A stretch of 64,000 nt of DNA from Alphaproteobacteria bacterium (GTDB lineage Bacteria > Pseudomonadota > Alphaproteobacteria > DSM-16000 > Inquilinaceae). Under the pieces are notes generated by a model that saw only the letters and a program-made list of their open reading frames with translations, searched no databases and was not told where the DNA came from. Both the position numbers and the translations under genes were made by a program. Below are positions 6,296 through 32,685 of this stretch, piece after piece. The stretch spans positions 62,001-126,000 of the forward strand of contig JANQIX010000006.1 in NCBI GenBank assembly GCA_028281925.1. The letters are read 5' to 3'. Within the stretch, counting starts at the first letter, position 1, and the number at the start of each line of letters is the position of its first letter.

Positions 6296-6482
6296 GACGG
6301 AGCGCGACGAACCGGGGTGGCGAGGGTCGCGCACCGTCGCGACCGGGCGTTGCGGCCGAGGCGTTGCGTGCGGGGGCCATGCAGCCGAGCTGGGATCGGC
6401 CAAGCCAAGCGTAGCCCCATGGGCGATGCCGACCAAGCGTGGTCGAGCGTCAAAACGAAGGGCGAAATTGGAGGATATAGGG

Positions 6483-10766: not shown

Positions 10767-12053
10767 GTGGCCGATCGCCCCGGTCTCATTCTTGCTCTGG
10801 TGCTGGCCCTTGCGGCCTGCGGACAGACCGGTGGCCCGCCGCCTGTGACAGCGGACCCACCGACGGCCTTGCAGCAGGCCGTGCCGCCCGAACCCGTGGT
10901 GGCAAGCGCCTGCTTGCCGCAAGAGGGATCGACCATGCTGCGCTTCGACAACCCCGTCCTGCCCGATACCGAAGTCGTCGTTGCCGCCGTGGGCGACGTG
11001 CTGCTGCACGACGTCGTCCAGCGTGAGGCCTTTGCCAGCCCCACCGGCTTTGCCGGCCTCTGGCAGCCGGTGGCCGACCTGTTGCGCGCTGCCGACGTGA
11101 CCTATGCGAACCTGGAAGGGCCGGTGGCCCCGGACATCGGCACTGACGGCCGGGTTGTCGAGGCCGCCGTGGAGGGCTTCGACGGATATGTCTACAGCGG
11201 CTATCCGATGTTCAACTATCCGCCCGCCGTGCTTTCGGCGCTGGCGCAGGCCGGCGTCGATGTGGTGTCGACCGCCAACAACCATTCGCTGGACCGCTAC
11301 GCCATCGGCATCGACCGCACGATCGAAGGCCTGCGCGCGACCGGCATCGCCCATACCGGCACGCGCAAGAGCGACGCGCCCGCCGACAATTGGTATGCCG
11401 TGACCGAGGCGCGCGGCTATCGCATCGCGTGGCTTGCCTGTACCTACGGTACCAACGGGATCGAGGATCGCGATCGGCAGGTCCTGATGTGCTATGAGCA
11501 CCGCGACCTGATCCTGGACGAGCTGGCGCGCCTCAGCGCCCGGCCGGATATCGACGCCGTGATCTTCACCCCCCATTGGGGCGAGGAATATGCGCAATCG
11601 CCGCTGTCGCGGCAGCGCGAACTGGCCCATCAGGCGATCGAGGCGGGCGCTACGGCGGTGCTGGGCAGCCATCCGCACGTCGTCCAACCGTTCGAGCGAT
11701 ACCGCAGCGGCGATGGCCGCGACCGGTTCATCGCCTATTCCCTTGGCAACTTCGTCAGCAATCAGCGCACGCTGGACCGACGGTCGTCGCTGATCCTTCT
11801 GCTCAGCCTGGCGGAAAGCCCGGAAGGCGACCTGTCGGTTGCCGGCGTCCGTTGGGTTCCCATTCGCGTCAACTTCGCCGCCGGCGCGGACGGCACCGGC
11901 ATCGCCGTCGAGGCGATCGACCGCACCGGCCAGGGCGGCGACAGCCGCGCCCTGCTCGTCGACCTGCTTGGTGAAGAGGACATCGCTCCGCCGCGGGTTC
12001 CGTTCACCGTGCTCGACAACTGCCCCACCGGCCCTGTGGCGATGGCGCCGTAG
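10767..12053 (+). CDS. CapA family (PGA_cap) metallophosphatase-like lipoprotein
   Basis: A 428-residue protein starting at GTG. A short signal with LALAAC (Cys18) predicts a lipoprotein. From residue 70 the CapA/PgsA fold is clear: AAVGDVLLHDVV, YANLEGPVAP, STANNHSLDRY, a Tyr- and Cys-containing core, FTPHWGEEY, GSHPHVVQPFERY and YSLGNFVSNQ. These match the metal-site motifs of calcineurin-like CapA proteins. In Bacillus the homologue acts in poly-gamma-glutamate capsule assembly; proteobacterial homologues without capB/capC, as here, have unknown roles at the cell envelope. Confidence 0.87.
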   Translation: MADRPGLILALVLALAACGQTGGPPPVTADPPTALQQAVPPEPVVASACLPQEGSTMLRFDNPVLPDTEVVVAAVGDVLLHDVVQREAFASPTGFAGLWQPVADLLRAADVTYANLEGPVAPDIGTDGRVVEAAVEGFDGYVYSGYPMFNYPPAVLSALAQAGVDVVSTANNHSLDRYAIGIDRTIEGLRATGIAHTGTRKSDAPADNWYAVTEARGYRIAWLACTYGTNGIEDRDRQVLMCYEHRDLILDELARLSARPDIDAVIFTPHWGEEYAQSPLSRQRELAHQAIEAGATAVLGSHPHVVQPFERYRSGDGRDRFIAYSLGNFVSNQRTLDRRSSLILLLSLAESPEGDLSVAGVRWVPIRVNFAAGADGTGIAVEAIDRTGQGGDSRALLVDLLGEEDIAPPRVPFTVLDNCPTGPVAMAP

Positions 12054-12206
12054 GCGGCGCCTCCCCCCGCGCATCTTCGCAATCACGGCCAGTGTGTTTT
12101 CTGCGCTGAGCACGCACAGGGCGGCCGCCCTGGACAATCTGCATCTTGTCGGTCAGCTGACGGGGCGCAAGGATCACGGCTTGCGCAACGATCCGGAGAC
12201 ACGACG

Positions 12207-12701
12207 ATGCATAGCCGGCGGCCGATCCTGAACGTCGACGATGTGCCGCTGCAGCAACACGGACACGGCGATACCTTTGCTGCACAGCTGGGGGCGATCG
12301 GAGAACTGATCGGCACGCAGAAACTGGGCTGCCGGCTGACCGTCGTACCGCCGGGCAAGAAAGCGTGGCCTTACCACCTTCACCACGTCAATGAAGAGTT
12401 GTTCGTTGTCCTTCAGGGCGAAGGCACGCTTCGGTACGGTGGGCGAAGCTACCCTATCCGGCAGGGCGACTGCATCGCAGCCCCACCAGGCCGCGGCACC
12501 GCCCACCAGATCATCAACACCTCACAGGACGAGCTGCGCTATCTCGCTATCAGCACCATGGAGCATCCGGACACCTTCGAGTACCCCGACAGCAACAAAC
12601 GGGGACTGGTCGTCGGGGCTCCGCCCGGGCGCCGGCCTTATGACGTGCGGCTCTGGTTTCGCGACGACTCGGCGGTGGACTACTGGGACGGCGAGACCTG
12701 A
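12207..12701 (+). CDS. Cupin domain protein
   Basis: A 164-residue single-domain beta-barrel. Cupin motif 1 is HLHHVNEELFVVLQGEG, with metal-ligand His and Glu in the usual places. Motif 2 is GDCIAAPPGRGTAHQIIN. GGAGACACGACG precedes the ATG. The C-terminal part (PDTFEYPDSNK, RPYDVRLWFR) resembles cupins annotated as mannose-6-phosphate-isomerase-like or sugar-binding, but no substrate can be assigned. It is convergent with the DUF882 gene 21 bases downstream. Confidence 0.85.
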   Translation: MHSRRPILNVDDVPLQQHGHGDTFAAQLGAIGELIGTQKLGCRLTVVPPGKKAWPYHLHHVNEELFVVLQGEGTLRYGGRSYPIRQGDCIAAPPGRGTAHQIINTSQDELRYLAISTMEHPDTFEYPDSNKRGLVVGAPPGRRPYDVRLWFRDDSAVDYWDGET

Positions 12702-12722
12702 GGCCCCGCTTCGTTTCGGGAC

Positions 12723-13253
12723 TTACCAGTCGCGAACCGGGCCGGTGTCGACGTGGACGAAGTCTGAACGCGGATAGTATCCGACGCCGCCAGACTGCAG
12801 GTCCATGGCCAGATTGCGCAGAGACCGCAGACCGACGCCCGGAATCCGCATATCGGCCGCCTGGCCGCGCATGTGGTAGCTGTTGCGGGCGACATTGCGG
12901 CTGCGCGAACGCAGCATCGCGTTGGTGGCAGCCGTGCGATAACCGGAAATGATGTGAACCGGTTCGCCCCTGCCCAGTTCGCTCTGCAGCGTGTAAAGGA
13001 TGTCCAGCAGGCCCGGGTCGATGCGGCGCGTTTCATCCGTGCGCCAGTCACGCATCAGCCAGTCCACCTGCGCCATCACATCGGGATTGTACCAACCATC
13101 GACATAGTATTCGGCGGCAAGGTACTGATCGTGATGGGTGTCCATCAGCGGAAGTACCCGGCTGTTGGTGGTCGCCAAGCTTAACCGCGGCGCCGCGACA
13201 ACACCGACCGTAGCGGCCGCGCCGAGCTTGAGAAGCTGTCTCCGCTTAACCAA
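12723..13253 (-). CDS. DUF882 / YcbK-like protein with Tat signal
   Basis: A 176-residue protein from the TTG at 13253. That start is chosen because GAGGAG lies 9 bases upstream and it places the twin-arginine motif KRRQLLKLG at the very N-terminus; a GTG at 13304 would add 17 residues. After the Tat signal the DUF882 domain (peptidase M15 fold) is complete: IISGYRTAATNAMLR, NSYHMRGQAADMRI (His and Asp metal ligands) and a final FVHVDTGPVRDW. The family is related to murein endopeptidases, so a periplasmic cell-wall role is likely, unproven here. It is convergent with the cupin gene. Confidence 0.88.
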   Translation of the reverse strand: MVKRRQLLKLGAAATVGVVAAPRLSLATTNSRVLPLMDTHHDQYLAAEYYVDGWYNPDVMAQVDWLMRDWRTDETRRIDPGLLDILYTLQSELGRGEPVHIISGYRTAATNAMLRSRSRNVARNSYHMRGQAADMRIPGVGLRSLRNLAMDLQSGGVGYYPRSDFVHVDTGPVRDW

Positions 13254-14040
13254 TTTCGCCTTCTCCTCGCCACTAGCTCTAAGGTCCGTTACTTTCTTGG
13301 GCACGGAGCTGAACTCATTTTGGACCTGTCAAAACTCTCCCGAGCCCACTTCTCTAACATGACAAGGTAAAAATCAAGCCGAATATCAGACTTATTCCAA
13401 ACTGAGCCGATGAAAATAAGGCAATCTCTATCTTGCCGCGAGAATCCACTCGCTGCCGCCGCTTTGCGACGCCCATTCGGCTCTTGTGATCTTGCTGCCA
13501 TCCCGGAGAACGGGACGTGAGGCTTCACAGAAGGGTCTTGCCGATACTCGTTTGGTCACGGCGGCATCGCATTGATTCGCGTCAATCCTTAGTGGTAACT
13601 CCTCCTTCTCATCGCGATCCTCCAAAAGGTCGCTGTCATCCTTCCTTCCGGCACACTTCGTCGCATCCGATTCCGTCTCATGTCCAGCGCATCGCGCATG
13701 CCGTCGCCCATCGTCGTCGGGCGAGCCCTGCAGTCGCAGCCCAATCCCCGCCTGTCCCTTGCTCGCCGGTCCGCGAGGGGACGAGGCCCAATGCGTCGGT
13801 GGACGCTGTCCTCAGGCCGTCATCTTCGCGCCGACATTTCCGCGTACCCATTACAGGTTCGTGATGAAAGAACCGGACACACTTGGTACAAGCAGAGCGG
13901 AGTACTACCAATATTTGTGGCAAAATCCGCATTTCACTGCTTAGTAACGGTTTGGCATCACGATGGTCCACGGGCACACCCTTCAAAATCAATCATTTCG
14001 GCCAAATATCTACGGCTGTTAGTTAAGGATCCGTGAAAGG
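13254..14040. other. Long intergenic region, AT-richer than surroundings
   Basis: About 790 bases with no convincing gene on either strand. It holds an FNR/FixK-like box TTGATTCGCGTCAA at 13572-13585 with no gene close enough to be an obvious target. A short 26-codon frame at 13864-13944 (MKEPDTLGTSRAEYYQYLWQ...) has protein-like composition but only a weak ribosome binding site. The last 200 bases may hold the promoter of the pentapeptide gene. Confidence 0.4.
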
Positions 14041-15324
14041 ATGGCCGGGGAAGACCTGGAGCTCATACTGGAACGCCATCGGCTATGGGTGGAGGGCGCG
14101 GGCGGCGGCGCGCGCGCCGATCTGTCTTTCGCCGATCTGTCCGAGCGGGAACTCATCGGGCGGGAACTGAGCGGCGCCAAGCTGACCGGGGCCAGCCTGG
14201 TTTCGGCTCGGCTCACAGAGAGCCGACTGAAGGGCGCCGACCTCTTCGGCGCCGATCTGCAGGATTGCGACCTCCAGCGCACCGACCTGTCCGAGGCCGA
14301 CCTGCGCGGCGCACATCTCGCGGGTGCCAACTTCCGGCACGCGAAGATGCGCCGCACGGACCTCCGCGCCGGTACGCTGATGGGCGCAAAGCTGCCCGGC
14401 GAGAAGATCCTGCCATCACCCGCCGACGGCCGCGGCGTCCAGATCCTGGCCGCAGACATGGCCCACGCCAATCTGACGGGCGCGCGACTCTCCCATGCCA
14501 GCATCACCGGCAGCGACCTCACCGGTGCGCGCCTGCAGCGCGTGGACCTTCGCTATTCCGACGTGAGCGAGAGCGTCCTGCAGAATGCGGACCTCAGCAG
14601 CGCCGATCTTCGCGGCGCGAATTTCTCCGGCGCGCGGCTGGTCGGCGCCGTGCTTGACGACGCGCAGGTCGAGGGATGCTCGTTCCGCGACGCCGATCTG
14701 ATCGGCATCGATCTCTGGCGTTGCGACCTTTCGCGGGCGGACACCACGGGCGCACGGTTCACCAAGCGGCTGGATACCTTGGCGGGCGAACTGCACCGGG
14801 CGGTCTTCGATCACGAACGGTGGATCGAGAGCTTCGGCCGCAAGGGTGCCCGTGCAGTGCTGGAGGGCGTGGACCTCAGCGATGTGGATCTGCGCAATGC
14901 CAATCTGGCGGGCGCCGTGCTGCGGGGCGCGCGCCTCAACCGCGCCATGCTCAACGGGGCCCATCTGATGCTGGCGGACCTGGCAGGCGCCAGTCTGGAG
15001 GGCGCCAGCCTGCGGGGGGCCGATCTGGCCGGCGCCAATCTCAGCTATGCCAATTTGTCCGGCGCCGACATGACCGGGGCGCTTCTCAACCCCGCCCCCT
15101 TGAGGGCGGCGGACGGCTCCCCTTCGGGCCGGTTCTGGTCGACCAACCTGCACGGCGCCGATCTGAAGCGCGCCCATTTGCCCGACTGTTCGCTGGTCGG
15201 TGCCAATCTCAGCGATGCGGATCTTTCCTGGGCCGACTTCCATGGCGCGGATCTGCGGTCGGCCAACCTTTCGGGTGCGCGCCTGCACGGCAGCGACCTC
15301 GCCCACGCCATCATGCCCAACTGA
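14041..15324 (+). CDS. Pentapeptide-repeat protein
   Basis: A 427-residue protein made almost wholly of A(D/N)LxG-type pentapeptides in several blocks: about 25-110, 130-225, 270-345 and 365-425. They predict right-handed quadrilateral beta-helices. A short helical N-cap (LELILERHRLWVEG) is common in alphaproteobacterial members. A break around residues 226-275, with a helical LAGELHRAVFDHERW segment, separates the main helices. The ATG follows AAAGG. Roles in this family range from gyrase protection to scaffolding, and none can be chosen here. It is convergent with the sulfatase gene. Confidence 0.9.
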   Translation: MAGEDLELILERHRLWVEGAGGGARADLSFADLSERELIGRELSGAKLTGASLVSARLTESRLKGADLFGADLQDCDLQRTDLSEADLRGAHLAGANFRHAKMRRTDLRAGTLMGAKLPGEKILPSPADGRGVQILAADMAHANLTGARLSHASITGSDLTGARLQRVDLRYSDVSESVLQNADLSSADLRGANFSGARLVGAVLDDAQVEGCSFRDADLIGIDLWRCDLSRADTTGARFTKRLDTLAGELHRAVFDHERWIESFGRKGARAVLEGVDLSDVDLRNANLAGAVLRGARLNRAMLNGAHLMLADLAGASLEGASLRGADLAGANLSYANLSGADMTGALLNPAPLRAADGSPSGRFWSTNLHGADLKRAHLPDCSLVGANLSDADLSWADFHGADLRSANLSGARLHGSDLAHAIMPN

Positions 15325-15341
15325 CCTCCCCGACCGCCGGG

Positions 15342-16880
15342 CTATCCTCGCGGCCCTCTCCACTCCACCAAACCGCCCTCACCTGCCGACATATTTGCAA
15401 ACTCTCGGTCCGCATGTGTCATTCGCCATGACATCATGCGCCGCAGGCAGTCGAGCTGTTCGAGCTTCAGCGCGGCGTCGTCGGTCCGGTCGACCAGTTC
15501 GGTAGGATCTTCCTCCAGGTCGAAGAACAGCGGCTTCAATCCGGCAAAGTGGACGTATTTGAAGCGCTCCCCACGCAAGACCGCCAATGAGCATTGGTCG
15601 GGCGCGAGACCGAGCGCCTTCTCCGCCGCGAAGGTCCGCACGTCGCGGAAGTCGTGCTCCCAATGCACCTCCCGTCGCCAGTCGGACGGCGTATCTCCGG
15701 CCAGGAACGGCGCAAGCGACACCCCGTCCACCGTGACCGGGACGCTCAGGCCCAGCCATTGGAGGATGGTCGGCATGATGTCGACCGATTCCGTGAAGGC
15801 ATCGACGACACGGCTGCGCGCCGCGCCGGACCCGGCGAAGGGATCGCGGATGATCAGGGGGATGTGGAACGCCTGGTCGAAATAGCCGTCCTTGCCCAGC
15901 AGGTGATGGTCGCCCAGCATTTCCCCATGATCGCTGGTGAAGATGACCAGCGTCCGGTCGAGATCCCCTGTCGCCCGCAAGAGATCGAAAAGGCGGCCCA
16001 GGTGATAGTCGACCTCAGCCATCAGTCCGCAATAGGTCGCCCGCGCCAAGCGCAGATCCTCCGGGGCCAGCCGACTGACGGGACCGGGGGCGCCGACGAT
16101 GAAGCTGCTAAGGGCGACGCTGGACAGCAGATGGGCAAGATAAGGGTGCAGTACAGCTTCCGCCTCCAGAGAGGCGGCTCGCTTCGGCGCTGGCAGGGCA
16201 TCCGGATCGATCAGGCGATCGTAAGGTTCGGGGGCCACCCACGGTGGATGCGGGCGCAACAGGCTCAGATGCAGGAACCAGGGACGATCGCCGTGGGCCT
16301 CCAGCCATGAGGTCGCCTGACCGGTCACGAAGGCGGTGTCGCTGAGCTCCGCAGCATACTGCGCCGTGAAGGCCGGCCAGCCTCGGATGCGATAGATATC
16401 GGGATGGGTGAGCGGCCCCTCGAACCCTTTGGACCGAAGCCAGGCGAGCCAGGGTCGGGGGTCTTCCGGCACCACGAGGCCCGGCGTGAAGCCGGGCAGC
16501 ACACCCTCGTAGGTCTCAAGCCGCGGGTCGGCCGGGTCCAGACCGGTGGGATCCGACGTCGTGTCGGTATAGCCGAACAGGACGGGATCGTAGCCGCCCC
16601 GCCGCACCTCGCGCGCAAGGTTGGGATGCCGGCTCGCCAAGGGGGTTCCGTTGCGCACCGACCGGTGGTTCATCAGATATCGGCCGGTATGAAGGCACGC
16701 CCGTGATGGGCCGCAGGGGCTCGCCTGTGCGAAATGGCGGCGGAACAGGACGCCTTGGGCGGCCAGAGCATCCAGCGCAGGCGTCCGTACCGCCGGATGC
16801 CCCAGCGCTCCGAGGCAGTCGCCACGCCACTGGTCGGCGGTGATCAGAAGAACGTTGCGACGCCCGGCGGACGGCTCCAT
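15342..16880 (-). CDS. Phosphonate monoester hydrolase / sulfatase family enzyme
   Basis: A 512-residue alkaline-phosphatase-superfamily hydrolase. The ATG at 16880 is chosen because the family N-terminus NVLLITADQWRGD follows directly, with GGAG upstream; the longer open frame to 17189 is non-family sequence. Cys56 in SPCGPSRA is the C-x-P-x-R site converted to formylglycine. Metal ligands are Asp16 and the SDHGEMLGDHHLLGK block. The motifs TGRYLMNHRSVRNGTPL, ATYCGLMAEVD and a C-terminal FKYVHFAGLKPLFFDLEEDP match Rhizobium/Burkholderia phosphonate monoester hydrolases closely. It would hydrolyse phosphonate or phosphate diesters and possibly sulfates. No signal peptide is seen, so it is cytosolic. 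No maturase (FGE) gene is adjacent. Confidence 0.88.
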   Translation of the reverse strand: MEPSAGRRNVLLITADQWRGDCLGALGHPAVRTPALDALAAQGVLFRRHFAQASPCGPSRACLHTGRYLMNHRSVRNGTPLASRHPNLAREVRRGGYDPVLFGYTDTTSDPTGLDPADPRLETYEGVLPGFTPGLVVPEDPRPWLAWLRSKGFEGPLTHPDIYRIRGWPAFTAQYAAELSDTAFVTGQATSWLEAHGDRPWFLHLSLLRPHPPWVAPEPYDRLIDPDALPAPKRAASLEAEAVLHPYLAHLLSSVALSSFIVGAPGPVSRLAPEDLRLARATYCGLMAEVDYHLGRLFDLLRATGDLDRTLVIFTSDHGEMLGDHHLLGKDGYFDQAFHIPLIIRDPFAGSGAARSRVVDAFTESVDIMPTILQWLGLSVPVTVDGVSLAPFLAGDTPSDWRREVHWEHDFRDVRTFAAEKALGLAPDQCSLAVLRGERFKYVHFAGLKPLFFDLEEDPTELVDRTDDAALKLEQLDCLRRMMSWRMTHADREFANMSAGEGGLVEWRGPRG

Positions 16881-17160
16881 CGACACGCGCTCCGGCAGAT
16901 TGAACCCGACAGTACTCCTGGGTCTGCCTAGCACAATAAGCGCGACGGGGTGATGACGTCGCGATGTCGGATTACCCGATGCACAAGCCGCGGACCGGAG
17001 CCGCGCGCCCCTTAGACGGAAGCCCCCTCCAACTTGAAAAGTTCTGACAAGTCCCGCCCGAACAGGCGAGGGCATACCTTCGTTCTCGTCGAGGCGAGAA
17101 ACACGGGCATCGCTCGGAAGCCTCAAACCCCGCAAACCACGACGAGAAGGACCGAAGACA

Positions 17161-17331
17161 ATGTTCGACAAGATCAACGAAGCCAACACCGAGGCCCAGA
17201 GCGAGCAGATTGAAGCCGTCGCTTACGAGGCACCCACTTTGCGCCGGGCCGGCACAGCGGTCGACCTGGTGCAGGGCCACAGCTTCCTGTCCGGCTACGA
17301 CTGGTGCCAGAACGGCCTCTACACCTGCTGA
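17161..17331 (+). CDS. Putative lasso-peptide precursor
   Basis: A 56-residue frame with GAAGGA 9 bases before the ATG. The leader (residues 1-38) contains Y22-x2-P25-x-L27-x3-G31, the signature bound by lasso B1 proteins. Counting back from the core these fall at -17, -14, -12 and -8, the canonical register. The usual penultimate Thr (-2) is Val. The core would be GHSFLSGYDWCQNGLYTC (18 residues): Gly1 and Asp9 can form a nine-membered macrolactam, and Cys11 and Cys18 lie in the tail and could form a disulfide, like class IV lasso peptides. The cyclase-like gene follows at 17584. No B1/B2 genes are seen. The product identity is inference, but the motif register is strong. Confidence 0.82.
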   Translation: MFDKINEANTEAQSEQIEAVAYEAPTLRRAGTAVDLVQGHSFLSGYDWCQNGLYTC

Positions 17332-17413
17332 TCCGGGTCTCGCGCTCGCCGGACCGGCAAGGTGAGGTACCCACACCCAACTGTCACCCCGAGCAGTCAC
17401 ACCTATCCCAGCG

Positions 17414-17456
17414 AAAGGCCATCCTTGCCGCCGACGGCGATCGAGGGTGGCCCTTT
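17414..17456 (+). terminator. Attenuator hairpin between precursor and cyclase genes
   Basis: AAAGGCCATCCTTG (17414-17427) pairs with CGAGGGTGGCCCTTT (17442-17456) through about 14 pairs with one bulged C. It ends in CCCTTTCGC. It lies 82 bases after the precursor stop and 127 before the cyclase start. A partial terminator here would give more precursor than enzyme transcript. Confidence 0.6.
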
Positions 17457-17583
17457 CGCATCTCCCGTGCCGGACGCAAGGTTGCGGGTCGGCTAAAGGG
17501 CCGAATGCTCGAAGTCGTTCATTCAAGTCATTGCCTTCGCGTAGGATCGCCGGCCATTGCCGGCAATGCGGTGGAACAGCACG

Positions 17584-19488
17584 ATGGCAACGGGATTTGC
17601 CCTGACGGTGGCCGATGGCATGGCCGAATGGCGCCTCCTCGGAACGGAGGCCGGGCGCCGCCTGGTGGCAACGGCGGCGACGGGCGGCGTGCGTCTGGTG
17701 CTGTACGGCCGCCTTACCTATCGCGAGGATCTGCGCGCGGCCCTCGGCGCCGACGCACTGCCTGCCGATCAGACCCCGCAATACACATCTACGCCGGACA
17801 ACGGCGGTGATGCGGCGTTGGCCCTCGCCGCCTATCTCCGCTGGGATGTGGACGGTCTGACGCGCCTTGAGGGCGACTTCGCCCTCGCGGTCGTCGACCA
17901 GGACCGCGGCCGTGTGCTGGCCACCCGTGACCCCATGGGTGGCTACCCTCTCTACTGGACTTGGCGTGGCGACACATTCGCCCTGGCGACGGCTCTGCGC
18001 CCCTTGGATGACCTGCTGGGTGCTGCGGCGCCCGATATCGGCTTCCTCGGTGAGATCCAGATGATGCCGTTCTTCGAGATCGATCATCTGGAAGAGACTG
18101 CGCTAACCGGGATCAATCGCCTCTTGCCGGGAACGCACCTTGAGGCCGAGATCGTCCGGCCCGAGCCACGGATCACGCGCTTTTGGTCGTGGCCGGACCG
18201 CATGGACGACGGCGCGACGGGCACTCTCGACATTGCTGCCGAGCGGTATGGGGAGCTCTTGGACGCAGCGGTCGCCCAGCGGCTGCGCGGCACGGTCGGC
18301 GCCCATCTCTCCGGCGGTATGGATTCGACCTCGGTCGCCCTCTTGGCGCAGCGGCATCTGTCGGCGGAGAACAGGCCGCTGCATGCCCTGACCATGGTCT
18401 ATGAGCGCCTGTTCGGTTTGGCCAGTGAGGCGCCTTATGTCCTGGCGGTCCAGGGACGGACAGGCCTCGTCTCGCATCACGTGGCCGGCGACGATGTTCT
18501 CGACTTCGACCATTTCGCCGGCGACCTCGACCACGACGAACCCTATCCCGGGTTCTTCCGCGTGCCCTCGGCGAAGTGCATGGCCGACGCGGCGCTCAAT
18601 GTCGGTGCTGATACGGTTATGACGGGGCTTGGGGCCGACGAGTTGGCCGCCGACATGCCCCACTACCTCGCCGACGAACTGGCCCGCGGGCGCTTGGCCA
18701 CGGCCTGGCTGGAGGCGGCGCGCTGGGCCAAGGCCTCAAGCCGTAGCCCGTGGAACACGTTCCGTCCTTTCGCGCTCGACCCCTTGATGCCCGTCTGGCT
18801 ACGGCCCGGCCTTCGAGCCCTGTTCACCGCCGGCTATGCCCCGCTCAACAGGCGCAACGGCTGGACCATCCCGCCCTGGGTCCAACGCGATTTCGCGCGG
18901 CAGGGGGCGCTGCGTGACCGTGTACTCGGCAGCTGGCGACGGGCCACACGCAGCGCCGACACCGTGGTTCTCTCCTATGCGCTGGAGGCGCTCGCCACCA
19001 CGGCCGGCGATTGGGTGCGCGCCACTCTGGCGGCCCCCCGGGGCCTGCACATCACCCATCCCTTCCGCGATCCCAGGCTGATTGCCCATGCGCTTGCCAG
19101 CCGGGTCCGACTGAGGCCGGTGCCCGGCGAGCAGAAGGCCATCCTGGGCCGGGCCATGCGTGATGTGCTGCCCGAGGCCATCGTCCGTCGGCGCGACAAG
19201 GGGAACTTCAACGCGGTCTACTACAAGGGACTGACCCGGAACCGTCCGACGCTGAACCGTCTCGTCGACCGCGCCGAAGACCTGGGGGAATGGCTCTTCG
19301 ACCGCGCCCTCCTGAAGGACTGCATTCTCCAGGCATCGCTGGGCACCGATAGCGTGCAACGGACGCACGGTATCAACAATTCGCTGGCCATCCTCTACTG
19401 GCTCGACCGGCTGCCCCGATGGCGAGCAACGCCCCTGACCGCGTCGTCGCTGGGCGCAACATCACCGGCAGATCGGGTTCAAGCTTAG
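17584..19488 (+). CDS. Asparagine synthetase-like lasso-peptide cyclase (C protein)
   Basis: A 634-residue two-domain protein. Residues 1-200 form a class-II glutaminase-like domain (GDFALAVVDQDRGRVLATRD, with PLYW) but lack the N-terminal Cys2 nucleophile, as in lasso cyclases. Residues 220-600 form the ATP-pyrophosphatase domain with HLSGGMDSTSVALLAQ (SGGxDS loop), TGLGADELAADMP, VPGEQKAIL and a C-terminal RRRDKGNFNAVYYKGL. Lasso C proteins activate the Asp/Glu side chain by adenylation and close the ring on Gly1. The length fits that family. ATG 17584 is chosen; ATG 17566 is possible. It lies 252 bases after the precursor, probably in one transcript. An ordinary glutamine-dependent asparagine synthetase is unlikely without Cys2. 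Confidence 0.82.
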   Translation: MATGFALTVADGMAEWRLLGTEAGRRLVATAATGGVRLVLYGRLTYREDLRAALGADALPADQTPQYTSTPDNGGDAALALAAYLRWDVDGLTRLEGDFALAVVDQDRGRVLATRDPMGGYPLYWTWRGDTFALATALRPLDDLLGAAAPDIGFLGEIQMMPFFEIDHLEETALTGINRLLPGTHLEAEIVRPEPRITRFWSWPDRMDDGATGTLDIAAERYGELLDAAVAQRLRGTVGAHLSGGMDSTSVALLAQRHLSAENRPLHALTMVYERLFGLASEAPYVLAVQGRTGLVSHHVAGDDVLDFDHFAGDLDHDEPYPGFFRVPSAKCMADAALNVGADTVMTGLGADELAADMPHYLADELARGRLATAWLEAARWAKASSRSPWNTFRPFALDPLMPVWLRPGLRALFTAGYAPLNRRNGWTIPPWVQRDFARQGALRDRVLGSWRRATRSADTVVLSYALEALATTAGDWVRATLAAPRGLHITHPFRDPRLIAHALASRVRLRPVPGEQKAILGRAMRDVLPEAIVRRRDKGNFNAVYYKGLTRNRPTLNRLVDRAEDLGEWLFDRALLKDCILQASLGTDSVQRTHGINNSLAILYWLDRLPRWRATPLTASSLGATSPADRVQA

Positions 19489-19560
19489 GTAGGCCGAAGG
19501 CTTACTCCAGCGCGAACGCGCACGGGCCCATCATGGGCTCGCACGTCACTCCTCGGCTCG

Positions 19561-20118
19561 TCAGGCGATGATCACCTTGACGGCCACCGGGCCCTTCGTG
19601 CCGTTGCGGGTCACCACCTGAACGCGCTGGCGGTCTTCCAGTGCGGGCAGCCGTGCTGCTTGCAGCGTACGATAGTCGACATAGATGTCGCGACCGCCGC
19701 CGTCCGGCGCTACGAACCCGAAGCCGCGCCAGGGGTCGTAGAACTTCACGGTACCCGTGGTGACCGGCCCGCCGGCCGGTGAATGCCCCTCACGGACGGA
19801 GCCTACAGCCCGGCTGCGCCGCGCGGCCGGCGCGCCGGCAACACCGCGATGCCTTGCCGTATCGCCGGATCGAACGGCGATAACCTCACTCACTTGACGG
19901 CCGTTGCTGGTGTCGGAGATCCGGCAATTCACGGAGTCCCCCGGCGCTATACGCGCCGCGCCCAGCATCAGCAGCGCAGACTTCCGAAGCACTGCGTCGC
20001 CAAGGCCGTCATGCGGGGTCACCACGCCAACACCCTTGTTGTTGCTGTACCATTTAACCGTCGCGTCAGTCGAGCAGCCGTTCTGGCCGCCTGTTCCCAC
20101 GATCGTGGTATCGGACAT
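19561..20118 (-). CDS. Cold-shock protein with two CSD domains
   Basis: A 185-residue RNA/DNA-binding protein. The first domain, residues about 17-80 (ATVKWYSNNKGVGVVTP), is divergent; its second RNP motif lacks the usual FVH. The second, residues about 118-184 (TGTVKFYDPWRGFGFVAPDGGGRDIYVD), is better conserved. A low-complexity Ala/Arg linker joins them. Double-CSD proteins are typical of alphaproteobacteria. GAGGAAGA precedes the ATG. It is convergent with the cyclase gene. A role in RNA chaperoning or stationary-phase adaptation is inferred from the family. Confidence 0.87.
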   Translation of the reverse strand: MSDTTIVGTGGQNGCSTDATVKWYSNNKGVGVVTPHDGLGDAVLRKSALLMLGAARIAPGDSVNCRISDTSNGRQVSEVIAVRSGDTARHRGVAGAPAARRSRAVGSVREGHSPAGGPVTTGTVKFYDPWRGFGFVAPDGGGRDIYVDYRTLQAARLPALEDRQRVQVVTRNGTKGPVAVKVIIA

Positions 20119-20429
20119 AGAGCGATTCTTCCTCGATTGAGTGCGCTTAATACCGCACCGGTCCGCTTCAGTTGGCCATTCGCCCGCAGATGGTCAAGAC
20201 CTCGTCCCGAATTAACCGGCTTTGTCTTGACGATTTTGTTCGTGAGCAAGATTTGACCATTGTGAATTAGCTACAATGCGAGACAATTCTCTAAGAGTCT
20301 GACCGAGTCTCGGCGGAAAGGAACCGCCTGAAACTCCATCAAGAATGTCGGCGGCACCAGGATTCACGCGGCGTCACCTTGCCTCCGCGCCACGCCGACA
20401 CGAATCGACTAACGTTGTTGCTGTCGGCA
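20119..20429. other. Upstream region of the cold-shock gene
   Basis: About 310 bases, AT-richer near 20220-20300. It should contain the promoter and 5' leader of the leftward cold-shock gene. No gene or clear hairpin was found. Confidence 0.4.
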
Positions 20430-20639
20430 TTACATGTGGTCGGCGGACTGCTCTTCGGTACCGGCCATCTCGTCCGGCTCGGTGCCGTCCCGGCGATGCA
20501 GCGTCTCCCACCAAGTCTTCGCCTCGTCGGACCCTCGGGCCACCAGCGGAACGACGACGTCGCGGGCCACGCGATACCCAAGCGCCGCCCCGAACCCCGC
20601 CACGGTGGCAACCGCTAACACCCCTACCAGAGGCGCCAT
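20430..20639 (-). CDS. Small single-TM membrane protein (paralogue 1)
   Basis: A 69-residue protein with GGGAGA before the ATG. One N-terminal TM helix (residues 3-22, APLVGVLAVATVAGFGAALG) is followed by YRVARDVVVP, then a hydrophilic acidic tail. Its first 28 residues are clearly related to those of the gene at 20890 (same PLVGV...AG.GA..G.R.AR pattern), so the two are paralogues 250 bases apart. Function is unknown. Confidence 0.6.
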   Translation of the reverse strand: MAPLVGVLAVATVAGFGAALGYRVARDVVVPLVARGSDEAKTWWETLHRRDGTEPDEMAGTEEQSADHM

Positions 20640-20889
20640 GATGCTTCTCCCGCCGGCTGACGCTCAGACATGGCTCGGCCACACCACCAAGTCGTCAGAT
20701 TAGGCACACGCGCTCCGCCTCAAACGTTTATGTCGTCCCGCCCCCGTCCGACCGCAAGCCTGCACCCGACTTTCGGACCAGCAAAGTCAGGAAATAGAAG
20801 CCGCAGCCGTCGCTACACAAACAACCCTGGATCGTAGCCGGGCATGTGGTCCGGGCGGCGATCGGAATGCTGCCGTGAACCGAGCGGAC

Positions 20890-21117
20890 TCAATCTGACC
20901 GTCGGCGCCTACCTTTGGCCGTTGATGGCTGATCGTCAGTGAGGTCGACATAATCACCTTCAATCACTTTGGCCGAACGCTCTTGTCCATCTCCACCGGA
21001 TGTCCTCTTCGGCCCAAGGTTAGGCAGCAGGTACTCACGCGCAAGTCGCCAGCCCACCAGCGCCCCTGCCCCTGCGATCGCGGCCGCGGCAAAAACTCCT
21101 ACGAGCGGTACCATCAT
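20890..21117 (-). CDS. Small single-TM membrane protein (paralogue 2)
   Basis: 75 residues from ATG 21117, or 74 from the next codon, also ATG. An N-terminal TM helix (VPLVGVFAAAAIAGAGALVG) is followed by WRLAREYLLPN and a charged tail ending KGRRRRSD. It is related to the protein at 20430 in the TM region and the following xR(V/L)AR segment, while the tails differ. It could be a small envelope stress or regulatory protein. No named family is recognised. Confidence 0.6.
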   Translation of the reverse strand: MMVPLVGVFAAAAIAGAGALVGWRLAREYLLPNLGPKRTSGGDGQERSAKVIEGDYVDLTDDQPSTAKGRRRRSD

Positions 21118-21345
21118 CCCACCCCACTCATCCGTGCGGCACGCGATCGTCCACCGAACCGCGCAATGGACAACCGTTAGAAGCCGATTATGGTGCCATT
21201 ATGCCAGATTGTCTTCACAGGGGAGAACCGGTCCGTACCTTAAGTGTCGACATCTGCAGCGGTGGGACGCGACGGATATCGGGTGCCTCTTCCCCTCGGA
21301 CCTTTCGTTATACCTCGGGCAGCGCATGGCCAAGCTTGCCCAACC

Positions 21346-22476
21346 TCAATCCTGGCGCGTCAGCAGAGATGAGTCGTACAACCAAATCTGTGCTGCCGCC
21401 ACGTCCGTTGACTCCCAATAGCCAGCGATCGCTGCCGCTAACCCGTCGTCATAGGGCACCAGCCTATACACCCATTCCCACTTGCCCGGCGGCGGCGCCC
21501 GAGCCTCCATTGGGCGCCCTAGATCAGTCCATCCGTGTTCGCCCCGTCGCCATACGCTCGCCTGCTGCCCGTCGTCGGCTGGTCCACCCACGCCGACATA
21601 CAGTTCACCACGGTACGAGACGAGATGGTTTGCGAGTGTAGCGGTCGACCATTCAAGCGCGTCGGGAAGCGCCGTCCATGTCATTCCGTCCCATAAATAG
21701 ATAAGCGAGACGGGCGTGGTCGCCGGTTGGCGCAGCAATCCAGTGACGATATCTCCTTCGTGCTCGTTAATCGCAATCACGGACTTGATGTGGGGTTCGT
21801 CCCATGAGCCATTGAGCCCGTCGCCGCCGATCTGCATCCAGGTCACACCATCGAACCGCCAGACGTCGCCATCATAATCGTCCCGGCCGGTCGTCACGAC
21901 ATAGAGCGCATCGTCAGTGCCTAGCATGTCATAGACGCCGTTATACATGCGGTCCCAGCTACCGTTCTGCCCGTCGCCAGCGACAGCCTGCCAGTGCGGC
22001 CCGATCCACCGATAGACCCTAGCCATGTCGCCAGTGTCCTCGTTGGCCACGCCGATATAGAGTTCGTCATCAAGAAAGGCGATCGCGGTAACGTTGTGGT
22101 AGATCGGCGGGATGCCGGCCATCCCGACATTCTGCCAAATGTCATCAGATTGCAGTGCCCAGATCTGTGCGGCACCTGGCACATGGTGTGCTAGCAACCC
22201 AACGTAGAGTGTCTCCGACGGCTCGTGAAAATGCAGGTGCTGCACCTGGGTATGCGAAGACCAAGTTCGCATCAGATCCCACCGTAGCCCGTCATGACAC
22301 CAGACCTGTGCTGGCTGTGATGTGTTGTAGTGGCTGGTCCCGACGCACAGATCGTCGCCGCGCAGCGCCGCCGAACGCAGACCGTAATTGTCTGGCCAAC
22401 GACCAAGTAACTCTTGTGCGGTGGATTGAGTGGACGCGCAGGATAGCAAGCACGCAAGAAAAAATGCCTTCATCAT
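21346..22476 (-). CDS. Secreted beta-propeller-like protein at the end of the phage operon
   Basis: A 376-residue protein whose ATG (22476) overlaps the stop of the tail-fibre gene in TGATGATG, so it is translationally coupled to it. The N-terminus is a Sec signal peptide (MMKAFFLACLLSCASTQSTAQ), either type I or a lipobox ending LLSC. The rest is 6-7 repeats of about 50 residues with patterns such as ELYVGVxxE...ARVYRW and GDGxNGSWD, typical of beta-propeller or sialidase-like folds. A signal peptide is unusual for a virion protein. It may be a host-surface or lysogenic-conversion factor, or a fibre-associated protein. Function is not known. Confidence 0.65.
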   Translation of the reverse strand: MMKAFFLACLLSCASTQSTAQELLGRWPDNYGLRSAALRGDDLCVGTSHYNTSQPAQVWCHDGLRWDLMRTWSSHTQVQHLHFHEPSETLYVGLLAHHVPGAAQIWALQSDDIWQNVGMAGIPPIYHNVTAIAFLDDELYIGVANEDTGDMARVYRWIGPHWQAVAGDGQNGSWDRMYNGVYDMLGTDDALYVVTTGRDDYDGDVWRFDGVTWMQIGGDGLNGSWDEPHIKSVIAINEHEGDIVTGLLRQPATTPVSLIYLWDGMTWTALPDALEWSTATLANHLVSYRGELYVGVGGPADDGQQASVWRRGEHGWTDLGRPMEARAPPPGKWEWVYRLVPYDDGLAAAIAGYWESTDVAAAQIWLYDSSLLTRQD

Positions 22477-23576
22477 CAACCCATGACTAGATAGTAGACA
22501 TTGATGGTTCCGGTTATTGTTCCGATTTTTGTCCAACCGATTTCGAAGGAACCGTTCGACCAGCTATTGACGTCGCCTTCATAGGCGTTTCCGCTCTCTT
22601 GAAACACGCTAATCGCGTTGATGCCGACAGCGGACCATGTATCTGGCGTCACGGAATGCCGATCATTTGCTGCGTAGTTGTTCGTTCCGTCAGATAGCCC
22701 GATCGAAAACTTGCTGGCGCCAGCTACCACTGAGATAAACAGGCCAACTTTCGGTGTAAAACTATTAGCCATGGTCACGGTCTGATTGCCACTGGCCAAA
22801 CTGGCATCGCGCGTGAAGGTGCCGATCTCATAGTTCGGTGTTGGCGCCAATGCGGCGATGGCCTGCGCCACCCGCAATGGTGACATCGACCGCAACGCGG
22901 CTTCGCTGCCGGCCTCCATCTCTGCTTGGGACGCGGCTGCTGTGGGAATGTCGGCATCGTAAGCCTGGACATCAACGCCTACCTCGACACCCAGCGTGGC
23001 TCGTGCCGCCGCGGCGTCGGCGTCGTCAAGAAGGCTCTCAGCAAAGGCGGTGATCGTAACCGCGCTGGAATTGACGACAGTTATGGAGACCGCCTCCAAT
23101 GCTGTTCCCACACTGTTCCACCTCAGAAACTGGTTCGCACCCTCTGCCATCTCGACATCCACAAGAGTCGACGACTTGGCGAGCCTGACCGAGCGCCCCA
23201 GCTGCTCGTCGATCTGTTGCGTGATCATCGTCAGCTTGTCCAGCGCCGTTTCCAACGTGGCGGCGGGCAGCGGGTCGCCTTCCGTCAAGTCGGTGTCCTG
23301 GGTCAGGGCCACGTCGCGCAGGATCGTCAGGGTCTCGCCTGAGGCCGGCGTGTAGTCCGTCGGCGACGTGTTGACGGTAAGCGTGCCGCCGGCCAAGCTG
23401 CCGGCGCCTGACAGCGTGTAGTGCACGCCGTTCGCCCAAGTCGTCTCCACGCCGCCCGCATCCTTGTGGATGGCCTTCAGGTCCGCGTCGGCAAGGAAAT
23501 AGAAGGGTACGGCGAACGCGATCGACGCCCCGTCTCCAGCATAGCTTACCCGTGCGGTGCTGCTTGCTACCGTCAT
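22476..23576 (-). CDS. Phage tail fibre protein (T7 gp17-like N-terminus)
   Basis: 366 residues from ATG 23576 (GGAG upstream); the open frame extends further but only with low-complexity residues. Residues 1-150 resemble the T7-type fibre N-terminal domain that docks to the tail: STARVSYAGDGASIAFAVPFYFL...DLKAIH, then a TLTILRDVALTQDTDLTEGD-type strand and an ALDKLTMITQQIDEQL helix. The middle is Ala-rich coiled coil; the C-terminus (250-366) is beta-rich with NGSFEIGW and is probably the receptor-binding tip. It overlaps the next gene. Confidence 0.8.
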   Translation of the reverse strand: MTVASSTARVSYAGDGASIAFAVPFYFLADADLKAIHKDAGGVETTWANGVHYTLSGAGSLAGGTLTVNTSPTDYTPASGETLTILRDVALTQDTDLTEGDPLPAATLETALDKLTMITQQIDEQLGRSVRLAKSSTLVDVEMAEGANQFLRWNSVGTALEAVSITVVNSSAVTITAFAESLLDDADAAAARATLGVEVGVDVQAYDADIPTAAASQAEMEAGSEAALRSMSPLRVAQAIAALAPTPNYEIGTFTRDASLASGNQTVTMANSFTPKVGLFISVVAGASKFSIGLSDGTNNYAANDRHSVTPDTWSAVGINAISVFQESGNAYEGDVNSWSNGSFEIGWTKIGTITGTINVYYLVMG

Positions 23577-23761
23577 GTTTCGATGCTCCGATGATGGTGA
23601 GCCGCCTGAGGGCGGTGATCCCGACTTGGGCCGCCCCCCCAAAAGGCGGCCGACCACATCTCAGCCGGATCGGTACGGCTGCCGGAAACCCAGCCTTGTG
23701 CGCGCCTCTGCCGACTGCCGATCTCGCTCCGTACCGACTGCGACGATTGCTCGTCGCCGTT

Positions 23762-24058
23762 CTAGCCGCCAATGTGCTCTGGCGGCGGCTGCGGGCTGGG
23801 CGCACACGGCGCGTACAGCCGGTCGACGAGGCGCTCGACGTGATCGATCCGCCGGGCCAGGTCGGCCACACGGTCGTGGCTGGCGAACCGCGCGTCCAGC
23901 CGGCCATCGACCTCATGCCGATATTTGGTCAAAAGATCGCCGGTGCGGTCCAGCCGGCGCATCATCGTGCGCCAGACGAAGCCGAGCATCCCGGTCACGG
24001 CGCTGACGACGGCGCCGAGGCCGGCGATCAGCTCACCCAGGGTTGCCGGGTTGTCCAT
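23762..24058 (-). CDS. Small phage membrane protein, possible holin or spanin-like
   Basis: 98 residues from ATG 24058, with GGAG 9 bases upstream. An N-terminal hydrophobic helix (LGELIAGLGAVVSAVTGMLGFVW) is followed by a basic-acidic helix (RHEVDGRLDARF...DLARRIDHVERLVDRL) that predicts a coiled coil. It lies between tail tubular B and the fibre gene, where lysis genes often sit in T7-like phages. A lysis role is an inference from position and topology. Confidence 0.5.
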   Translation of the reverse strand: MDNPATLGELIAGLGAVVSAVTGMLGFVWRTMMRRLDRTGDLLTKYRHEVDGRLDARFASHDRVADLARRIDHVERLVDRLYAPCAPSPQPPPEHIGG

Positions 24059-24189
24059 GAACAAAAACTCCAGTTGACGTCGGCGCGGCGGCCGGCATGA
24101 CGGCGCAGGCGGCCGCCGCACCCGCATGGCGGGCAGCCTTGCGTTCAATCGACTGACTTCGGCGTACCGCGACGCACTGCGAGACCTGC

Positions 24190-26316
24190 TCAGCCTGTGG
24201 TTCGCACTTCGGGCATCAGCGCGATCACGGTGGCCGGAAACGGTCCTTTGCCGCTGATCTCCAGAATCCCGTCGGTGTCCCAGCCGTGGGGAAAGCTGAT
24301 TTCCATATCGCCGCTGTAGAGCGACGGCGGCGAGCCCAGCGGCGTCTTGGTCGTACGGAAATGGATGGTATCGGGGGGCTGGCCTGGCGCCCCCACCTCG
24401 ACACCGAGGGTCCGGTAGATGCGCGCGGTCACACGGGCAATGCGCTTGGCCCGCCCCTGCGCCGTGCCCGCGGCCGCTGCGGCCTCGACACGCATGGGCG
24501 ACAACACCCAGCCATAACCAAGGCCGGCATGCACGATGCTCGCTGCGGGGTCGATCGAGATCCGCCCGGCGGAGACGGAGGCAGGCGGTCGCCGGGCGCC
24601 ATCGGCCAGCACCTCTAAGGTCTCGCCCTCCAGATGGTCGAGGCCCGAGATCACCGTGGCCGGCGCGCCATTGTAGCTCAGCCCACTATCCACGTAGAAC
24701 GCGTCGGCCTGCTCGTCTTCCGCACTCAAGCCCGGCTGCATCACCTCAACATATCGCCGCGTGTTGCCGTCGATGGTGCGCCGGACGACCAGCCAGAGCT
24801 CATCGCGCCCGTCACCTGGAATGACGGCGGTGCTCTCCACCGCCGCGGGCCCGCTGCCGTCGCTCCCGCCCAGAATGTGGCGATGCCAGGCCACCACGTC
24901 CTGGTCGCGCTGATAAGTGCATCCCAACAACGTGCCGTCGCTGCGTACGGCCCAGACGATGCTGTCTGGCTCCTGCTGATAGGCCAACTGCACGATGCCG
25001 CCGACGGAGATGTGCTCGGCGAGCAGCGTCAGGTCGGGCGACACATGGCTGTCCACCTCGAAGCTGTAGACCATCTCGCGCAGCTTGCGCCGGGCCGCCT
25101 GCATGAACAGCACCGCATTGCCGATGCGCAAAGGCAGTTGCATGGCACTGCCGAACGTCGTCTCCGGCACGATGCGCACGCTGTTAGGGCTGATCGCTTG
25201 GTCCGGCCCCGCGCCACCGGCCACGAACTCCGCGCCGACAGTGCCAAGCACCAGCTGCTTGCCCGGCGACATCCAGGCAATCGCGTTCACCTGGCCCGAT
25301 GCGATCGTGTAGCTCAGCGCATCGTCGTCCACGACCGGCGACGAGACGCCATGGTTCTCATAGTTTCCGGATTTGGAGAACCATAGCCGTTGCGGGTGGG
25401 AGGGCGAACGCGCCCAGACCAGCCGTTGCTCAAAGAAGCCGACCACGCCGGGATAGTCGCTGTCTGTCCATTCCGCCGGGGGGTCGGTGAAGGCGATGTC
25501 CACCAGCGACCAGGCGTCATGGGCAAAGCGCAGCAGCTTGCGCGGCGGGTGCGCCTCATGCGCCAGGTACAGCACATCGGCCGACTGCGTGTAGTAAAGG
25601 GATGCGATCTCGCTCTGCTGATAGGGCGTCGGCAGCTCAACCGGTGCATCATCCAGAAAGGCCACGTCGTCGAGTGCCGGCGTCCCGCCCTTACGCGCGA
25701 AGTGTATGTAGAAGCTGGCGTTGCCTGCACCCGGCGTGAACGCGTGGGCATGCCAGCCGACGCCGAAATCCTTGCTGCCGATTTCCGTGCCGCCGTCCGT
25801 GGTCCCGAGCTTAAGCGTCAGCTCGTCAGTGCTGGCGGTGCCGGTGATGGCGAAGACTAGAACCAGCCCGACCTCGGGATCCGTTACCGACACCGCCTGG
25901 CTCAATGTCCCGCCGGCGGCGAACGACGCGCGTCCGGCCGACTGCGTCACGCTGGCCGCCGTCCAACTGCTGAGATCACTGTCAAAGCTGCCATTGACGA
26001 TGACTGCATCCGTATCCGCAGCCACCACCCGCCCTTGGTCCCTGAAAAAGCGGAAGGCGCTGGCCGCCGCTTCGATCACATAAGCCTGGGTGGTGGAGAA
26101 GCGGAAGGGCAGCAGCCGCGATACCGCATCATGGTCTCTGACGCTGCCGACGAACCGGGTGCCGCCGCGCCGCGTTGCCGCTCCATGCGGCAGAACGATC
26201 ATGTTCTCTAGCCTGCGGCAGCCGTTGAAGTACTTGGCGATATCGACGCGCCCGTCCAGGCGTGGGCTCAGCTCGCCGGCGGTGAAATTGGTGAGGATCG
26301 GGTTGGCCTTCGGCAT
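24190..26316 (-). CDS. Phage tail tubular protein B-like (nozzle / stabilisation) protein
   Basis: A 708-residue protein. The start at 26316 is fixed by the family N-terminus NPILTNFTAGELSPRLDGRV and a GAGGG upstream, 4 bases after the preceding gene's stop. Other typical segments are LENMIVLPHGAATRRGGTRFV, LLPFRFSTTQAYVIEA, LIYLAHEAHPP-like repeats and WAVRSDGTLLGCTYQRDQDVVAWHRH. These match the T7 gp12-like proteins of podoviruses. In the virion it would form the tail nozzle below tail tubular A. It is beta-rich, without TM segments. Confidence 0.82.
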   Translation of the reverse strand: MPKANPILTNFTAGELSPRLDGRVDIAKYFNGCRRLENMIVLPHGAATRRGGTRFVGSVRDHDAVSRLLPFRFSTTQAYVIEAAASAFRFFRDQGRVVAADTDAVIVNGSFDSDLSSWTAASVTQSAGRASFAAGGTLSQAVSVTDPEVGLVLVFAITGTASTDELTLKLGTTDGGTEIGSKDFGVGWHAHAFTPGAGNASFYIHFARKGGTPALDDVAFLDDAPVELPTPYQQSEIASLYYTQSADVLYLAHEAHPPRKLLRFAHDAWSLVDIAFTDPPAEWTDSDYPGVVGFFEQRLVWARSPSHPQRLWFSKSGNYENHGVSSPVVDDDALSYTIASGQVNAIAWMSPGKQLVLGTVGAEFVAGGAGPDQAISPNSVRIVPETTFGSAMQLPLRIGNAVLFMQAARRKLREMVYSFEVDSHVSPDLTLLAEHISVGGIVQLAYQQEPDSIVWAVRSDGTLLGCTYQRDQDVVAWHRHILGGSDGSGPAAVESTAVIPGDGRDELWLVVRRTIDGNTRRYVEVMQPGLSAEDEQADAFYVDSGLSYNGAPATVISGLDHLEGETLEVLADGARRPPASVSAGRISIDPAASIVHAGLGYGWVLSPMRVEAAAAAGTAQGRAKRIARVTARIYRTLGVEVGAPGQPPDTIHFRTTKTPLGSPPSLYSGDMEISFPHGWDTDGILEISGKGPFPATVIALMPEVRTTG

Positions 26317-26320
26317 GCGG

Positions 26321-26887
26321 TCAGGCCCTCGCCGCCAACCAGGCGGATTCAGGGTGCCGTTCGGCCGATCCTTCCTGCGCGTCGATCCGCCTCGCCTCCG
26401 CCAGCTTGTCTCGATAGAGCCGCCACATGCGCTCGGTGGTCGTCGTCTCGTCGACGATGTCGGTGGCGATCTCGGCGGCCAGACGGGCGCTGAATGCCTC
26501 GGCAAAGCCTGCATCCCAATCGGCCGGATTGTCGGCGCGGCGGATATAGCGGACGTTCAGGGGGGCCGAAGCATCGGTCAGCACCGTGCGGCCCTCTACG
26601 GTCCACTCTTCGTCCCTCAGTGCCTCGACCGACCAGAGGCGCACCGCGTCGGAGGGCAGCTGGAACGCACGCGCCCATCCCCAGACTGCCGAGCCGGCAA
26701 GTGCCGGGAGCGTCGCCCGCGCCATGGCGAAGTTCCAGGGATGGGCGCGCAACAGCGCGTCGCGCACCGCATCGAAACGGGCATTGCAGATGCGCGCCTC
26801 TTTGCTGTCTTCCGTCAGCGTGGTGATGCGCCGCGCGCCGATCGCGCTCAGGGCCGCGTTGGCGCGCTCGACCTGGCTGAAGGCCAT
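26321..26887 (-). CDS. Phage tail tubular protein A-like (adaptor)
   Basis: 188 residues. The opening VERANAALSAIGARRITTLTEDSKEA...CNARFDAVRDALLRAHPWNFA is the classic T7 gp11-type adaptor N-terminus, with the LLRxHPWNFA helix. Residues 90-150 (LNVRYIRRADNPADWDAGFAEAFSARLAAEIA) are the second conserved block. It would sit between portal and nozzle. It is co-transcribed with the nozzle gene, with a 4-base gap. Confidence 0.83.
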   Translation of the reverse strand: MAFSQVERANAALSAIGARRITTLTEDSKEARICNARFDAVRDALLRAHPWNFAMARATLPALAGSAVWGWARAFQLPSDAVRLWSVEALRDEEWTVEGRTVLTDASAPLNVRYIRRADNPADWDAGFAEAFSARLAAEIATDIVDETTTTERMWRLYRDKLAEARRIDAQEGSAERHPESAWLAARA

Positions 26888-26891
26888 GGGT

Positions 26892-27083
26892 TCACGGTGC
26901 CGGCGGGAAGGCGTCGAGATCGACGATCGCCATCTCGAAGGCCTTCAGCTGCAAGAGCAGGTCGTAGCGGTCGACGGTGTCGGCCACCGCCAGCATGATC
27001 GAATTGGTTTTGGTCGCACCACTTGCCGCGGCGACGTCTCCGGCCACGGTGCCGGCGTTCACGTCGAACTTCCAATCGGCCAT
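26892..27083 (-). CDS. Small phage protein of unknown function
   Basis: 63 residues with a very strong ribosome binding site (GGAGGGG, 3-9 bases before ATG 27083). The N-terminus (MADWKFDVNAGTVAGDVAA) is beta-like, followed by an amphipathic helix (DTVDRYDLLLQLKAFEMAIV). It ends 4 bases before the tail tubular A start. Co-expression with virion genes suggests a structural or assembly role. No family is recognised. Confidence 0.65.
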   Translation of the reverse strand: MADWKFDVNAGTVAGDVAAASGATKTNSIMLAVADTVDRYDLLLQLKAFEMAIVDLDAFPPAP

Positions 27084-27240
27084 AATCCCCTCCATGCGCA
27101 CATGGGGCCGCCGCGATGGGCGCGCGCGACTGGTGCCGCCGCCCCGCGGTTGCCTTGCGTCTCTTCCGTCATTGCTGTCGTGGGTGGGGCGGGCCGACGT
27201 CCCGCGCTGGAACGCCGGCCCGAGAGGTCGATTGATCCCG

Positions 27241-27723: not shown

Positions 27724-27739
27724 ATCCGGTCCCTCCCCA

Positions 27740-28612: not shown

Positions 28613-28654
28613 GGGGATGTCCTCCGTTCCGTGTTGCGAGTGTGCGTGCGGCAC

Positions 28655-28688
28655 GGGGGTTGTCTGGCCCTGATGTCGCCAGACCCCG
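28655..28688 (-). terminator. Hairpin upstream of the capsid gene
   Basis: A perfect 7-bp stem, GTCTGGC (28662-28668) and GCCAGAC (28678-28684), is extended outward by G/C pairs. It lies about 45 bases before the capsid start on the minus strand. It could be a terminator or an RNA-processing stem giving the capsid its own message level. Confidence 0.4.
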
Positions 28689-32671: not shown

Positions 32672-32685
32672 GTGTTGATACCCTG

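Follow-up and report, generated by a model that had tools for sequence, protein, structure and literature searches.

In lasso peptide biosynthesis the leader of the precursor (A) is bound by B1, which presents it to B2, and C closes the ring with ATP (e.g. PMC5067487, PMC10885120). The closest described systems differ in which part of this scheme they resemble: the class IV lasso peptides LP2006, pandonodin and the felipeptins (PMC9266682, PMC13352647) in the product; the precursors with Ile or Val at −2 of Bradymonadales, Acidobacteriaceae and Sphingomonadales (BsfA) in the leader, where experiments have validated the part played by Ile(−2) in removing the leader and the clusters all encode a kinase or phosphotransferase (PMC10368454); and the microcin J25 McjB-type systems in the enzymes. 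For the separation of genes there are the cebulassopins (J. Am. Chem. Soc. 2026, cited in PMC13352647 and PMC13381572), described in the title of that report as a split operon, and, in another class of peptides, the unclustered proteases of lanthipeptides (PMC8960859).

The locus described here lies in a 64,000-nt stretch of an Inquilinaceae genome (GCA_028281925.1, contig JANQIX010000006.1, positions 62,001 to 126,000), called the window below. Neither a B1 (RRE) nor a B2 (peptidase) gene was found at the locus, a point of context that the original prediction of a lasso precursor had overlooked. Its parts are:

16965 to 19560, no strand assigned: lineage-specific A-C island of 2.6 kb, absent in the sister species
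17035 to 17056, plus strand: regulatory box TGAAAAGTTCTGACAAGTCCCG, 22 bp
17075 to 17080, plus strand: −10-like hexamer TACCTT, 18 nt past the box, fitting the TAnnnT pattern of the site alignment
17161 to 17331, plus strand: lasso precursor A, 56 aa, leader in codons 1 to 38 (from translation, NF033521, alignment and profile search)
17275 to 17328, plus strand: precursor A core GHSFLSGYDWCQNGLYTC, codons 39 to 56
17411 to 17459, plus strand: strong hairpin GCGAAAGGCCA.../...TGGCCCTTTCGC between the precursor and cyclase genes (folding z −2.1 for the whole spacer)
17584 to 19488, plus strand: lasso-type cyclase C of the Asn-synthase fold, 634 aa from ATG 17584; an alternative upstream start, TTG 17557, is possible

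Precursor A translates as MFDKINEANTEAQSEQIEAVAYEAPTLRRAGTAVDLVQ/GHSFLSGYDWCQNGLYTC (leader/core). Counted from Gly39, the leader carries Y, P, L and G at −17, −14, −12 and −8, just as the original prediction had spaced them and as in the YxxPxL...G pattern at the positions bound by B1, and it ends in Val(−2) and Gln(−1). The core begins with Gly, where lasso cores have Gly (or Cys, Ser or Ala), and has Asp at 9, within the range (7 to 9) of the Asp or Glu that closes the ring; the nine-member ring foreseen between these two residues agrees with this, and the two tail cysteines foreseen are C11 and C18, both outside the ring, as in class IV. Recomputed monoisotopic masses of 2031.824 Da for the cyclised form and 2029.809 Da with a disulfide (difference 2.016 Da) match the earlier values of 2031.82 and 2029.81 Da. 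Precursor A scored 20.2 bits against the NCBIfam leader model NF033521 (lasso_leader_L3, cut-off 19) and was the sole match above cut-off when the whole 6.3-Mb genome was searched. A profile built from its relatives, with precursor A left out, recovered it from the six-frame window with E = 1.2e–14, the runner-up frame having 0.57.

Homologous precursors lie on another contig, C3, where three of them (L003:5704-5880, 6214-6393 and 6839-7015) are placed around a B gene; the cluster also encodes a cyclase and an ABC transporter for cyclic-peptide export (TIGR01194, cut-off 286, scored at 497 bits). All three precursors are missed by NF033521, yet they align full-length with precursor A. Across six aligned precursors the leader residues Y, P, L, R, A, G, A and V are invariant, as are G1, Y8, D9, C11 and C18 of the core, and both cysteines recur in two further precursor copies of the sister genome G001, beyond the six aligned cores. 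Val in place of the near-universal, though not absolute, Thr at −2 had been noted as a departure; it is no one-off, Val or Ile being the rule in all precursors of the family, a generality that had likewise escaped the original prediction. Two of the C3 precursors, A1 and A3, have the same core, with 6 synonymous and 0 nonsynonymous codon changes, and none of the C3-type cores is altered in the sister genome, although the leaders differ; on these codon comparisons, the C3-type cores are under strong constraint. The core DNA of the GYSWMSGYDMCGHGIYECE precursors (L003:6214-6393 compared with L011:1979-2158 and L038) is identical over 57 nt, both between copies and between species, and this identity despite differing leaders suggests gene conversion. 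In both genomes a gene for a GYF_2-domain protein (L003:7268-7984, minus strand) is interspersed with those for the precursors and B.

Searches of the entire genome with PF13471 and PF05402 gave one match above cut-off for each model, both in the same 289-codon ORF of contig C3. Taken from an internal ATG, this protein passes the lasso B2 model NF033537 (51.8 bits against a cut-off of 33) as well as both Pfam models, so that B1 and B2 are present at the level of the genome only, through one B1-B2 fusion remote from the window. No second B gene was found by the PF13471 and PF05402 searches of this 6.3-Mb, 122-contig draft, whose completeness is given as 100% and in which a missing second B is possible in principle.

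The original prediction had named a search for homologues and a lasso-cyclase relationship of the neighbouring gene as checks on its reading. Homologues with the conserved leader were found, among the C3 precursors and in the sister genome, and the neighbour proved to be related to lasso cyclases. It is an Asn-synthase-like protein (Asn_synthase PF00733, 103 bits, plus GATase_7) that carries the SGGMDST ATP-binding motif and lacks the Cys2 glutaminase nucleophile, motifs whose meaning is well established, and it is 64% identical to the C3 cyclase. Its best NCBIfam matches are the albusnodin/ikarugamycin macrolactam model and the lasso cyclase model, at 156 and 153 bits against cut-offs of 300 and 525. 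The nearest annotated relatives, in plasmid records, are from Nostoc sp. ATCC 53789 (37% identity) and Streptomyces sp. HUAS 14-6 (33%), and both adjoin genes named 'lasso peptide biosynthesis B2 protein'. We ruled out an asparagine synthase or other amidotransferase, on the missing Cys2, the best model matches and the neighbours of these relatives. A short Nostoc frame between the lasso B2 and cyclase genes (L039:6605-6760) has a leader-like part ending SVQ/G and no Asp or Glu at core positions 7 to 9. The Nostoc lasso cluster also has a pentapeptide-repeat protein between B2 and C; one is likewise encoded near the island, yet outside it, at 14041 to 15324 of the window (plus strand), and is common to the sister genome.

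Judged from its sequence, then, the 56-codon ORF at 17161 to 17331 is a real lasso precursor, since it matches the leader model, has homologous precursors with an equal ring and cysteine pattern, and adjoins a lasso-type cyclase; the lasso-precursor reading given earlier gains support from all three. As the two conserved cysteines both lie outside the ring, a class IV-like product with a tail-tail disulfide is a fair prediction.

The window locus and the C3 cluster share a rare promoter element: TGAAVANNYCTGACAANTSCCG precedes precursor A, two of the C3 precursors and the C3 B gene. The box occurs at five zero-mismatch sites in the 6.3-Mb genome, the reversed control giving none, and in the window there was one match at up to three mismatches (0.02 expected). 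Allowing two mismatches, we found seven sites each in this and the sister genome, and none in most other relatives. Of 13 distinct sites in the two species, most have a TAnnnT hexamer at a constant distance of 18 nt past the box, and the lasso genes keep it best. The remaining sites, few in number, precede genes for secreted proteins:

L012:1747-2193, minus strand: boxed non-lasso gene
L014:2076-2750, plus strand: boxed non-lasso gene
L015:3980-4624, minus strand: boxed non-lasso gene

Two of the products are secreted proteins of 148 and 224 aa, of unassigned family, whose sister orthologues are boxed too, and the third has a TAT-like signal and a Peptidase_C70 match. The box looks like the site of an activator or special sigma factor, and the hairpin between the two window genes possibly limits read-through into C.

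The A-C island is present in one of the two known genomes of the genus, so the window core has no orthologue for a direct test of selection. The sister species has a C3-type cluster (on its contigs C119 and C252) but not the island: the counterparts of window positions 11244 to 16964 and 19561 to 23598, the flanking sulfatase and cold-shock regions, lie about 150 bp apart there; the unrelated sequence of about 150 bp in this empty site prevented the reading of any target-site duplication. Between the window and C3 cyclases dN was 0.28 and dS 1.17 (dN/dS about 0.24). This dS is far above the value of about 0.36 between the C3 cyclase and its sister orthologue, which places the split between the cyclase paralogues before that between the species; the island may either have been lost in the sister or have been acquired from a relative. 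Among 192 relatives, 385 genomes of the class and 398 of the phylum there were no close members outside the genus, and the precursor profile had two weak class-level matches (E about 0.008) that look accidental. A scan of genome contigs gave one relative, JANQQD010000150.1 (the L011 locus above), labelled as an Anaerolineae MAG; its content is as in contig C119 of the sister, which belongs to the genus of the window, and the label is probably wrong. A prophage-like block with tail, major head, virion structural, head-tail adaptor and terminase proteins by PHROGs (22476 to 42147 of the window, minus strand) starts about 3 kb downstream of the lasso cyclase. That the island is prophage cargo was rejected: a viral-contig scan with the cyclase found nothing, and the sequence past the island, into the tail gene at 22476 to 23657, is common to the island-free sister.

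The sequences themselves show the parts and their homology, the presence of one B gene, the promoter element in common, and where the island occurs and where it does not. We think it quite probable that these make up a satellite A-C lasso unit whose precursor the C3 peptidase processes in trans to a class IV-like product. Precursor A and its own cyclase would be expressed from the same kind of promoter as the distant complete cluster. As there is no B1 or B2 at the locus and one B gene in the genome, maturation by the remote C3 peptidase is most likely: the B1-B2 fusion would bind the conserved leader (Y−17, P−14, L−12, G−8) in trans and cut after Val(−2)-Gln(−1). Val at −2 need not block this cleavage, since Val or Ile occupies this position in all homologous precursors, and for Ile(−2) a role in leader removal is validated (PMC10368454). 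The satellite cyclase, or its C3 paralogue, would then activate Asp9 with ATP and join it to Gly1, giving a nine-residue ring and a nine-residue tail that is predicted to be threaded. Pairing of Cys11 with Cys18 in an oxidising compartment would probably lead to class IV topology, and the C3-encoded exporter probably carries out the product, which may be biologically active. Against this reading stand the lack of a local B, the absence of Thr(−2), a cyclase below the equivalog cut-offs, the draft state of the genome and the confinement of the island to one of two genomes.

The same absence of B and exporter, together with the absence of the A-C pair from the sister species, would also fit a decaying remnant, a duplicated A-C pair that has lost its B and exporter and is now productless. 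We consider this quite unlikely, as neither ORF is disrupted, conservation extends to the promoter box and −10 element, every leader, ring and cysteine position is kept, and the cyclase dN/dS argues against decay. It is unlikely, too, that precursor A is cyclised only by the C3 cyclase, as one of several precursors of that enzyme, with the satellite cyclase serving another substrate or both sets. The leaders are indeed alike, the cyclases are 64% identical and one C3 cyclase already serves three precursors; nevertheless, no precursor other than A lies near the satellite cyclase, and the genomes compared have either both or neither.

Since the window cyclase scores higher with the albusnodin/ikarugamycin macrolactam model than with the core lasso cyclase model, though below cut-off with both, the product might be a macrolactam other than a lasso, i.e. 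a branched-cyclic unthreaded peptide or other amide. This we regard as very improbable: albusnodin is itself a lasso peptide, the nearest cyclase relatives adjoin lasso B2 genes and a ring from G1 to D9 has the usual lasso size. Only the shortness of the frame speaks for a chance ORF with a lasso-like motif, and its probability is next to nil given the independent profile match, the shared promoter and the adjoining cyclase; we rejected it on the six-precursor alignment and the relatives-only profile.

On the boldest reading, one leader peptidase would serve two cyclase-precursor pairs that are apart in the genome and evolve independently, and a dedicated regulon, with secreted proteins also under its control, would coordinate them; modular A-C 'cassettes' would be gained or lost as 2.6-kb islands plugging into a resident B and exporter; and the class IV-like family with Val/Ile(−2) leaders would have no kinase and form a new lasso clade. 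For all of this jointly we put the chances slightly above even. Genome-mining tools seek A, B and C together, so an A-C pair without B could be missed or discarded, and if satellite pairs do rely on a remote B, current counts of lasso repertoires are too low. Whether B or C controls substrate choice could then be tested on paralogues that occur naturally within a single genome. The family also provides further natural examples of Val/Ile(−2) leaders, with no recognised kinase among scanned neighbours, and of conserved class IV-type cysteines.

The peptide adds a new member to the lasso class, encoded in a split arrangement; published precedents exist for Val(−2), for class IV cysteines, for multi-precursor clusters and, to go by a title, for a 'split operon'. 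In the literature as far as it was readable, a search for a lasso A-C pair without B found no precedent apart from the cebulassopin title, and none for the variant seen here, in which a separate A-C island, present in one genome and absent from the other, is connected with a resident B through a common promoter. By that title, on which alone the likeness is judged, the cebulassopin genes are similarly divided between places in one genome. The lanthipeptide systems are alike in that the leader protease is supplied from elsewhere in the genome, and differ in RiPP class and protease. Like the class IV peptides, precursor A has one cysteine pair, both in the tail outside the macrolactam ring; it differs in core sequence, in the placing of Cys at 11 and 18 of an 18-residue core and in Val/Ile(−2), and its disulfide is predicted. 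With the BsfA-type precursors it shares a hydrophobic Ile/Val penultimate leader residue and the conserved YxxPxL leader; unlike in those clusters, B1 and B2 are fused here, and no kinase or phosphotransferase domain was recognised among the scanned neighbours (part of the ORFs) of the window and C3 loci. The McjB-type systems (PMC5067487) likewise have a fused B1-B2, an Asn-synthase-like C and several precursors per B, whereas here one precursor is found with its cyclase on a different contig from the cluster, to which the pair is linked by the promoter element they have in common.
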